64,000 bases of DNA from positions 582,001 to 646,000 of the forward strand of contig NZ_AAYC01000001.1 of assembly GCF_000169455.1 (NCBI RefSeq), written 5' to 3'. This DNA is from Roseobacter sp. SK209-2-6. GTDB taxonomy: Bacteria > Pseudomonadota > Alphaproteobacteria > Rhodobacterales > Rhodobacteraceae. The translations under genes were made by a program, and so were the position numbers. This document shows positions 60,286 to 62,720 of the stretch, piece by piece (position 1 is the stretch's first letter; each line of letters starts with the position of its first letter). The notes below the pieces were generated by a model. That model searched no databases, was not told where the DNA came from, and saw nothing but the letters and a program-made list of their open reading frames with translations.

Positions 60286-61860
60286 CTAGGCGAGATCTTT
60301 GTAAGAAATTTCGCGGGTGTCGACCCCTTCGCCGACCTTGCCACGGCGTACGATCAAACGGTTCAGCGCGTTCACATAGGCCTTGGCTGAGGCAACAACA
60401 GTATCCGTATTTGCGCTTTCACCGGTTGCAATGACACCATCCTCTTCCAGGCGGACAGAAACGGTCGCCTGGGCATCTGTGCCCTCGGTTACTGCGTGCA
60501 CCTGATAGAGCTGCAGGCGCGCAGTGTTCGGGTGGATCTTGCGGATCGCCTTAAAGGTCGCATCCACAGGGCCATCGCCTTCGGAGGTGGCGCTGACATC
60601 TTTGCCGTCAACTTCCATCTCGAGGGTGCTTTCAGCAGGCCCACCGGTGCCGCAAACTACTTTCATGGAAACGATTTGCAGGTAGTCGTTTTCGGCATCT
60701 TCGCCAGACCGCATCAGCGCGATGAGATCATCGTCAAAGACTTCTTTCTTGCGATCCGCCAGCTCTTTGAAACGAACAAAGACGTCCTTGAGTTGGTTAT
60801 CGCCAACCTCAAAACCCAAGTGTTCCAACTTGTCGCGCAGGGCTGCACGGCCAGAGTGCTTGCCAAGGGGCAACGAGGTGCCGGAGAGACCCACATCCTC
60901 TGGGCGCATGATCTCAAAGTTCTCGCGGTTTTTCAGCATGCCATCCTGGTGGATACCGCTTTCATGGGCAAAGGCGTTTTTGCCCACGATAGCCTTGTTA
61001 GGTTGCACCACAAAGCCGGAGACAGTCGAGACGCGACGCGAGATATGCATGATCTTGGTTGCATCAATGCCGGTGCTCCAAGGCATGATGTCATTGCGTG
61101 TCTTCAGCGCCATCACCACCTCTTCAAGTGCTGTATTGCCCGCGCGCTCGCCCAGGCCGTTGATGGTGCATTCGATTTGGCGGGCGCCGCCAGCAACGGC
61201 TGCCAGGGCATTGGCGGTCGCCATGCCAAGATCGTTGTGACAATGGGTGGCAAAGATCACTTCATCCGCACCGGGAACCGTTTCGATCAGGCGCTTGATC
61301 AGATCCGCGCTCTCTGCCGGGGCAGTGTAGCCCACGGTATCAGGGATATTGATGGTAGTGGCACCCGCCTTGATCGCGATCTCGATCACGCGACAGAGGT
61401 AATCCCATTCGGTGCGGGTGGCATCCATTGGTGACCATTGCACATTGTCCACCAGATTACGGGCATGGGTGACTGTCTCGTGGATCTTGTCCGCCATCTC
61501 ATCCATGGTGAGGTTCGGAATGGCGCGATGCAGTGGCGAGGTGCCGATAAAGGTATGGATGCGGGGCTGAGCGGCCTTGCGAACCGCTTCGGCGCAGCGA
61601 TCGATGTCCTTGAAGTTGGCGCGAGCGAGGCCGCAGATCACCGAGTTCTTCGAGCGTTCTGCAATCTCGGACACCGCACGGAAATCGCCTTCGGAGGCGA
61701 TTGGAAAACCGGCCTCGATGATGTCCACGCCCATTTCATCCAGAAGCCCGGCAATCTCCAGCTTCTCGTCATGAGTCATGGTGGCGCCGGGGCTTTGCTC
61801 GCCATCGCGCAGAGTGGTGTCGAAGATCAATACGCGATCTTTTTCAGTCAAATTGGTCAT
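60286..61860 (-). CDS. leuA: 2-isopropylmalate synthase
   Basis: A 524-residue enzyme condensing acetyl-CoA with 2-oxoisovalerate in leucine synthesis. The catalytic HMGL-like barrel begins with the metal-binding IFDTTLRDGEQSPGA; further conserved residues lie in ATHCHNDLGMATAN. The C-terminal dimer domain (about 395-510) is the leucine-feedback region. It is preceded by a leucine-rich leader peptide gene and alternative hairpins (61861-62043), indicating attenuation by leucine supply. It stands alone without leuBCD in the window. Confidence 0.96.
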   Translation of the reverse strand: MTNLTEKDRVLIFDTTLRDGEQSPGATMTHDEKLEIAGLLDEMGVDIIEAGFPIASEGDFRAVSEIAERSKNSVICGLARANFKDIDRCAEAVRKAAQPRIHTFIGTSPLHRAIPNLTMDEMADKIHETVTHARNLVDNVQWSPMDATRTEWDYLCRVIEIAIKAGATTINIPDTVGYTAPAESADLIKRLIETVPGADEVIFATHCHNDLGMATANALAAVAGGARQIECTINGLGERAGNTALEEVVMALKTRNDIMPWSTGIDATKIMHISRRVSTVSGFVVQPNKAIVGKNAFAHESGIHQDGMLKNRENFEIMRPEDVGLSGTSLPLGKHSGRAALRDKLEHLGFEVGDNQLKDVFVRFKELADRKKEVFDDDLIALMRSGEDAENDYLQIVSMKVVCGTGGPAESTLEMEVDGKDVSATSEGDGPVDATFKAIRKIHPNTARLQLYQVHAVTEGTDAQATVSVRLEEDGVIATGESANTDTVVASAKAYVNALNRLIVRRGKVGEGVDTREISYKDLA

Positions 61861-61894
61861 GCTGGTAGCTTTCTATTCTGTCCTAAGTCCATTT

Positions 61895-61951
61895 TCTGGC
61901 GCGCTTGCAAACCCTCTGAGCGGACGCGCCAAAGAATGGCACGCTCAGAGG
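61895..61951 (-). promoter_or_regulatory. Alternative hairpins of a leu attenuator-like leader RNA
   Basis: Two stems can form in the minus-strand leader. Stem A: CCTCTGAGCG (complement of 61942-61951, containing the last Leu codon and the stop of the leader peptide) with CGCTCAGAGG (complement of 61913-61922), 10 perfect pairs. Stem B: TTTGGCGCG (complement of 61925-61933) with CGCGCCAGA (complement of 61895-61903), 9 pairs with one G-U. The 5' arm of B lies in the loop of A, so the stems interfere. No U-run follows B, so the outcome may be translational or rho-dependent. Confidence 0.6.
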
Positions 61952-62031
61952 CAGCTTAGGAGCAGTAGGGCACGCAGAGACAGCCCGCGGGTCGCGGAGT
62001 CGGTCACAAGGATATCTGCGTTCAAAGTCAT
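61945..62031 (-). CDS. Leucine-rich leader peptide of leuA
   Basis: A 28-residue open frame starting MTLNADILVTD and ending RALLLLSCL: nine of 28 residues are Leu, with four in a row (CTA CTG CTC CTA) near the end. There is no ribosome site, but a TATAAA -10 box (62038-62043, minus strand) lies 6 nt before the ATG, so the transcript probably begins at the start codon (leaderless). The stop codon is inside an attenuator-like stem, 84 nt before leuA. This matches ribosome-mediated attenuation of leu genes, as known for leader peptides of other amino-acid operons. Confidence 0.8.
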   Translation of the reverse strand: MTLNADILVTDSATRGLSLRALLLLSCL

Positions 62032-62037
62032 GGGGGA

Positions 62038-62043
62038 TTTATA
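62038..62043 (-). promoter_or_regulatory. -10 box of the leuA leader transcript
   Basis: TATAAA on the minus strand, 6 nt upstream of the leader-peptide ATG at 62031, predicts transcription starting at or next to that A. A convincing -35 is not seen (CTTCCC at the 17-bp position). Confidence 0.55.
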
Positions 62044-62138
62044 CAGCGCCCAAAAGGAATGGGAAGAGGGAAATTTTGCGAAACGCAAAGCGGGCACGCG
62101 GCCAAGTCATCCTCTGCCTAAATTCCTTGTGGCAGCGT

Positions 62139-62720
62139 CTAGTAATGTGGCGGGGTAACGGCCCAGACGAGGACGGTTCGCTTGGGGCCGGGATTGTGAT
62201 AGCGATGTGGCCGTTCAGAGGAAAACTGAATTGTATCTCCTGCTTGCAGCAAGACGGTTATGTCATCGACGGTGACTTCCAGCTGCCCCTCAGCGATGTA
62301 CCCTGCTTCCTCACCCTTGTGTGAGTATAGCTCCGCACCGGAACCTGCGCCGGGTTCAAAGGTTGTCAGCACCATTTCCAATTGACCCGAGAGGGATGGG
62401 CTGAGCAATTCGTCGCGCAGGCCGGATGCAAAGCGCAAAGAGCGCCGCTGCCCTGCACGGACGACAAGGCCAGCTTCAGGGCCTTCTTGATCCTCTGGTC
62501 CCGGGAAAAACCAATTGATGCCGACCCCCAGTGCTTTGCCAATGACGTTCAGGGCCCGAATGGAGGGATCCGCATCCTGGCGCTCCAATTGGCTGAGATA
62601 GCCAATAGAGAGACCTGTTTCCGCAGCCAGCTGTTTCAGTGTCAGGTGCTTGGCTTTGCGCAACTCACGCATTCGCGCGCCGATGATGGGTTGCGTTTCC
62701 CGTTTTTTTTGGTCGTCCAT
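62139..62720 (-). CDS. XRE-type HTH regulator with C-terminal cupin domain
   Basis: A 193-residue regulator. The N-terminal HTH (about 15-70, LTLKQLAAETGLSIGYLSQL) is followed by a cupin barrel (about 110-190) with conserved His/Glu positions (SHKGEEAGYIAEG). This MerR-independent PuuR-like class often senses small metabolites such as polyamines or amino acids. It is divergent from the MFS gene, with a perfect dyad between them as a likely binding site. Confidence 0.88.
   Translation of the reverse strand: MDDQKKRETQPIIGARMRELRKAKHLTLKQLAAETGLSIGYLSQLERQDADPSIRALNVIGKALGVGINWFFPGPEDQEGPEAGLVVRAGQRRSLRFASGLRDELLSPSLSGQLEMVLTTFEPGAGSGAELYSHKGEEAGYIAEGQLEVTVDDITVLLQAGDTIQFSSERPHRYHNPGPKRTVLVWAVTPPHY

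Follow-up and report, generated by a model that had tools for sequence, protein, structure and literature searches.

The leader region of leuA in Roseobacter sp. SK209-2-6 probably acts as a leucine-responsive, ribosome-operated translational attenuator of this gene. The region lies on the minus strand of the window, the stretch of 64,000 nucleotides that was analysed, and contains a Leu-rich leader ORF, a pseudoknot that includes the leader stop codon, and a base stem in which Leu codons of the leader pair with the ribosome-binding region of the first downstream gene. The product of leuA (60286–61860, minus strand), 2-isopropylmalate synthase, has the Pfam domains HMGL-like, HCS_D2 and LeuA_dimer and carries out the committed step of leucine synthesis, a step that appears to be controlled by this element in nearly all Rhodobacterales, abundant marine bacteria included.

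The leader ORF and its promoter

The leader ORF (61945–62031, minus strand, stop codon included) is leuL-like and conserved in Rhodobacteraceae. Its 28-residue product, MTLNADILVTDSATRGLSLRALLLLSCL, includes nine Leu residues, and the coordinates and counts given for it in the first-pass annotation are correct. The ORF ends 84 nt before the leuA ATG at 61860. Four Leu codons, CTA CTG CTC CTA, follow each other at 61957–61968; this run had been placed next to the stop codon, but it is separated from the stop by Ser, Cys and Leu codons.

The loci of relatives were gathered via LeuA, and a leader ORF was detected at 155 Rhodobacteraceae loci. The leaders found upstream of leuA in these relatives are typically 26–32 residues long, and many have the C-terminus LLLLSRL directly before the stop codon. 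Counted from the leader stop, codons −21 to −12 retain Leu in 122–155 of the 155 leaders. At codons −21, −18 and −15, the entropy is low at the first two positions and higher at the third, which indicates that Leu itself is under selection. Codon −12 is Leu without exception (155/155), 151 of these leaders having CTT or CTA there; in the sequenced parts of leuA from the same loci, these two codons together make up 8.6% of all Leu codons. By this coding signature, the leader ORF is translated and encodes a real Leu-rich leader peptide. Residues 6–7 of the leader (62011–62016 in the window, minus strand) are His-Ile or Asp-Ile (CATATC or GATATC) in most leaders and are better conserved than the middle of the peptide; no explanation for this was found.

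Upstream of the leader ORF is a −10 box, TATAAA (62038–62043, minus strand), with the transcript start predicted at or beside the leader AUG. The distance of 6 nt between TATAAA and the A of the ATG is exactly that described previously. In the relatives, a −10-like box is found 6–8 nt 5′ of the leader ATG in 149 of 154 leaders, and the box has at least five of six matches to TATAAT in 116 of 154. A sequence resembling a Shine–Dalgarno (SD) occurs 5′ of the leader ATG in only about 1% of leaders. Given this conserved spacing between the TATA box and the ATG and the lack of an SD, the transcript very probably begins at the leader AUG and the leader is very probably translated leaderless, in agreement with what had been suggested from the single sequence. 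A putative −35 element, CTTCCC (62061–62066, minus strand), is located 17 nt from the −10 box. The family consensus at this site is CTTTTC, and ctTTTCaT is conserved at about the same distance in the aligned upstream regions of 104 relatives. This family-wide CTTTTC-type −35 differs from the TTGACA consensus, and a generic sigma-70 scan found no TTGACA/TATAAT promoter. A gene for a regulator with helix-turn-helix and cupin domains (62139–62720, minus strand) lies directly upstream in the same direction.

The pseudoknot and the base stem

The 5′ arm of stem 1, CCTCTGAGCG (61942–61951, minus strand), holds the leader stop codon UGA and forms a perfect 10-bp stem with the 3′ arm, CGCTCAGAGG (61913–61922, minus strand). 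Inside the stem 1 loop is the 5′ arm of stem 2, TTTGGCGCGT (61924–61933, minus strand; core GGCGCG at 61925–61930), which makes 10 pairs, G-U included, with the downstream 3′ arm, GCGCGCCAGA (61895–61904, minus strand; core CGCGCC at 61898–61903). That a perfect 10-bp stem encloses the stop codon, and that the second 5′ arm sits within its loop, had been recognized in the first-pass annotation; comparison with the relatives bears out both. A stem 1 over the leader stop is present at all 155 Rhodobacteraceae loci, its commonest length being 10 bp, and stem 2 (GGCGCG with a downstream CGCGCC) was detected at 154 of them. The linkers are short (L1 about 8 nt, L2 mostly 0–3 nt and L3 mostly 4–12 nt). 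The two stems cross, and the loop lengths allow them to coexist sterically. This does not support mutually exclusive antiterminator and terminator stems, the arrangement of competing hairpins that had been read from the sequence; the other part of that reading, ribosome-mediated control of leuA, stands as the likeliest function.

Of the cells in a 53-sequence MAFFT alignment, 93.8% pair in the pseudoknot, and two-sided (compensatory) changes occur in 8 of its 17 pairs, examples being GGTGCG:CGCACC and GCTGAGCG:CGCTCAGC. Cells with two-sided changes numbered 33, compared to 8.4 in shuffled alignments, with none of 500 shuffles as high, and slid controls were far lower. Alignment of the relatives had been suggested as a check on the first reading, and it reveals conservation of the Leu codons and compensatory changes in both stems, rather than the lack of conservation that would have spoken against it. 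By covariation, stems 1 and 2 are thus an H-type pseudoknot. The minimum free energy z-score of the single sequence was only −2.1, so that the evidence consists of conservation and covariation and not of the single-sequence fold. It is possible that the 5′ arm of stem 2 pairs instead with GTGCC (61938–61942) to make an alternative hairpin: this inner helix, GTGCC:GGCGC within the stem 1 loop, is paired in 95.8% of cells, with little covariation. RNAalifold, which cannot represent pseudoknots, picked stem 1 together with this inner hairpin.

The third helix was not part of the first-pass annotation and joins the Leu codons to a segment that lies about 19 nt before the first gene's start codon. 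In the window, the 5′ arm of this base stem, TCCTAAG (61955–61961, minus strand), is formed by the Leu-Leu-Ser codons and pairs with the 3′ arm CTTAGGA (61881–61887, minus strand), which ends 20 nt before the leuA AUG. The helix flanks the upstream side of AGAAAG (61869–61874, minus strand), the probable leuA SD. (A short ORF that overlaps the start of leuA, ATGGAC..GCATGA, was considered for possible translational coupling and dropped, since it is in another frame in the congener L002.) The region spanning the Leu codons to the Arg codon paired with its own downstream region at −13.8 kcal/mol and with that of other species, in permutations, at −11.1 kcal/mol (z = −13). Another leader segment, taken as a control in the same test, gave a z of only −3, and relatedness alone therefore accounts for only a small part of the base-stem signal. 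An exact 6-nt complement of the Leu-codon segment exists at 56% of loci, compared to 9% after shuffling; at the remaining loci, about 44%, there is no such complement between stem 2 and the AUG.

In the last Leu codon, the synonymous third base and the pairing partner covary: CTT occurs with TAAG in a ratio of 43:1 and CTA with TTAG in a ratio of 26:0. The corresponding Fisher p of 2e-18 ignores phylogeny and is not usable as a probability. Along the LeuA tree, the codon changes nine times and the partner ten times, 68 of 69 rows being concordant, and the well-supported branches hold only 2–3 independent codon–partner pairs. From the end of the partner arm to the AUG of the first gene, the median distance is 19 nt (interquartile range 17–21), and the base stem (−26 to −18) mostly flanks the SD (about −15 to −7). 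By this coevolution of its two sides, the third helix connects the Leu codons with the ribosome-binding region of the first gene, and its location points to control of translation initiation.

The strong conservation of the stem sequences (CCTCTGAGCG and CGCTC) and the compactness of a pseudoknot with a base stem would also suit an aptamer or a site bound by a regulatory protein, in which the Leu run is kept for RNA pairing and not for leucine sensing. A precedent of this kind has been argued for the actinobacterial LEU element (PMC1262725). Such a site is very unlikely to be the explanation, however, because Leu is retained from codon −21 to codon −15 while the wobble bases vary freely, which is a coding signature, and because the conserved spacing from promoter to ATG argues for translation of the ORF.

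Loci with an inserted gene bear on the target of the base stem. At 11 Rhodobacteraceae loci (L292, L294, L295, L296, L298, L014, L035, L080, L118, L122 and L124), a small gene for a 118-aa cupin (Cupin_2) intervenes between the leader and leuA. There the sequence complementary to the Leu codons is located at the ribosome-binding site (RBS) of the cupin gene, mostly on the SD and 4–11 nt from the start codon, and the Leu-codon pairing is stronger at the cupin RBS than at the leuA RBS in 10 of the 11 loci. The pairing thus seems to track the first translated gene, which is expected for control of translation initiation but not for a terminator. These insertions constitute a natural experiment, and the target that they indicate is translation initiation.

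Proposed control of leuA translation

A U-run follows stem 2 at 5 of 154 loci, T-rich tracts are found at 3 of 155, and a terminator scan of the window returned no terminator-like site. An intrinsic terminator (a GC stem with a U-run) before leuA was rejected on the rarity of the U-run and the negative scan; across the loci compared, intrinsic terminators appear to be practically absent. The missing U-run had already raised the suspicion that the final step might not be classical, and the comparison justifies it. Attenuation could still act on transcription if stem 2 (GGCGCG:CGCGCC) or another hairpin terminated without a U-run, or if Rho acted on the unshielded leader, with stem 1 as the antiterminator. 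The leader peptide with its regulatory amino acid and the stop codon in stem 1 fit such a scheme, in which stem 2 would remain free to form when a ribosome is at the stop codon. It also has an alphaproteobacterial precedent in trpL of Sinorhizobium meliloti, a leaderless transcription attenuator that works through transcription termination and releases an sRNA (PMC10117765, PMC7298713). Like trpL, the leuA leader would have its ORF at the 5′ end of the transcript of an alphaproteobacterial amino-acid operon and would be under ribosome-mediated control; in contrast to trpL, which terminates transcription and yields an sRNA, it has no terminator. We consider control of transcription unlikely, since it is at odds with the scarcity of U-runs and T-rich tracts and with the scan of the window, and leaves unexplained the base stem, its fixed distance from the start codon and its shift to the cupin start.

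For translational attenuation, the leader ORF, the promoter spacing, both stems of the pseudoknot, the base stem, its position at the RBS of the first gene and the absence of a terminator come from sequence comparison, and we infer the transcript start, leaderless translation, stalling, the direction of regulation and the action of repression on translation. When leucine is plentiful, ribosomes would pass through and leave the leader, and the Leu codons would become free. The free Leu-Leu-Ser codons would pair with the segment directly upstream of the leuA SD. The resulting base stem would close over the pseudoknot, which consists of the stem with the stop codon and the GC stem crossing it, and would hinder 30S subunits from loading on leuA. 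Under a shortage of leucyl-tRNA, a ribosome would stall on the Leu codons, the last of which is nearly always CUU or CUA, codons that are otherwise uncommon. The stalled ribosome would cover the 5′ arm of the base stem, and leuA would be translated.

The effect of a ribosome was modelled in constrained folds, which exclude the pseudoknot. When the Leu codons were masked, the expected number of pairs in the base stem fell from 9.5 to 0.2, and stem 1 persisted. With a ribosome on the Leu codons, the unpaired fraction of the region from −35 to −12 rose from 0.45 to 0.57, and the modelled accessibility of the leuA SD changed only from 0.51 to 0.60. Such modest changes are what one might expect if the pairing mainly set a constitutive level of leuA translation or the stability of the mRNA, with no response to leucine. 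We give this almost no credence, since it would then be a coincidence that a leader rich in Leu, with uncommon codons for it, stands specifically in front of a leucine-pathway gene. A ribosome at the leader stop codon led to an opening similar to that caused by stalling on the Leu codons. The OFF state of the translational attenuator therefore requires that ribosomes leave the leader, and this requirement is the weakest step of the model.

Distribution and relation to other leaders

A covariance model (R1) was built from the leader regions of 53 relatives. It has exactly one match per genome in 196 of 197 Rhodobacterales genomes, a recurrence beyond chance. In the genome of SK209-2-6, the one significant match is at leuA (E = 3e-15), the next match having an E of 1.3. 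In Rfam 15, the element had no match above the gathering score to any leader family. Outside the family, R1 matched in 11 sampled alphaproteobacterial genomes at E ≤ 0.05, and 3 of these 11 matches (G039, G051 and G053) directly adjoin leuA of the same genome. Leaders that end in LLLL-S-R-P and have their stop codon in a CCCCTGAG..CTCAGGGG stem occur in Bradyrhizobium, Bosea, Methylobacterium, Asaia and others. At the non-Rhodobacteraceae loci, there is weaker evidence that the Leu codons pair with the leuA RBS (z = −2.4). A loose pattern, YTGAGCG-N-CCGCTC, was tried across the class and abandoned as uninformative, chance matches being too many. A literature search found no paper joining leuA and a leader peptide with Rhodobacter or Rhodobacterales; a 2004 survey of proteobacterial attenuation lay outside the search, and an alphaproteobacterial leu attenuator may have been predicted before.

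The classical leu attenuator of enterobacteria is leuL of the leuABCD operon, represented in Rfam by Leu_leader (RF00512). The Rhodobacterales element shares with it a Leu-rich leader peptide before leuA and helices beside the leader stop codon, but differs in having neither a U-run terminator nor a match to an Rfam leader family. In the translational attenuators of erm and cat genes, a ribosome stalled on a leader ORF rearranges a downstream hairpin that holds the RBS. The proposed exposure of the downstream RBS by a ribosome stalled on the leader ORF is similar, except that the strand that represses in the leuA leader appears to consist of the regulatory codons themselves. This suggests a terminator-free readout of amino-acid supply, in which the codons that sense the amino acid also repress.

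A closer parallel in layout is the LEU element upstream of actinobacterial leuA (Seliverstov et al. 2005, PMC1262725). As described there, the element comprises an upstream ORF with a run of Leu codons that pairs with the leuA SD (the base stem) and either a pseudoknot or an alternative hairpin; a terminator is not described, and the mechanism was left open, with a binding protein proposed. The same paper cites the similarly laid-out leader of Streptomyces coelicolor leuA, in which leader mutations were inconsistent with classical attenuation, and these results count against a ribosome-operated attenuator as the explanation here. A Leu-run ORF before leuA, a pseudoknot and a base stem formed by the Leu run are common to both elements, and a terminator is neither described for LEU nor found here. 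They differ in that LEU is actinobacterial, whereas the present element belongs to Alphaproteobacteria and has a leader that is very probably leaderless. Furthermore, the leader stop codon here is part of pseudoknot stem 1, and the base stem lies mostly just 5′ of the SD, mostly covering the SD only in the cupin loci. The Rhodobacterales element may therefore be called LEU-like in layout, a likeness drawn from the published description and not from sequence homology.

A broader claim seems to us evenly balanced between right and wrong: that this RNA element, uncatalogued and present in nearly all Rhodobacterales, has relatives throughout Alphaproteobacteria; that its leader is translated leaderless and the regulatory Leu codons serve also as the strand repressing the downstream ribosome-binding region, locked by a pseudoknot containing the stop codon; and that it is the proteobacterial counterpart of LEU and would give LEU a ribosome-sensing mechanism. 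The mechanism of LEU, left open in 2005, becomes directly testable in cultivable roseobacters.

Two further observations were made at the leuA loci of other genomes. At alphaproteobacterial loci outside Rhodobacteraceae (L048–L083 and L103), the leaders end in LLLL(S/T/I)(R/C/S/G)P before the stop codon, which is in a CCCCTGAG-type stem. In genome G024 (contig C1, 312734–314304), leuA matches as two overlapping pieces in different frames (residues 1–184 and 180–523), which suggests a frameshift or an assembly error.
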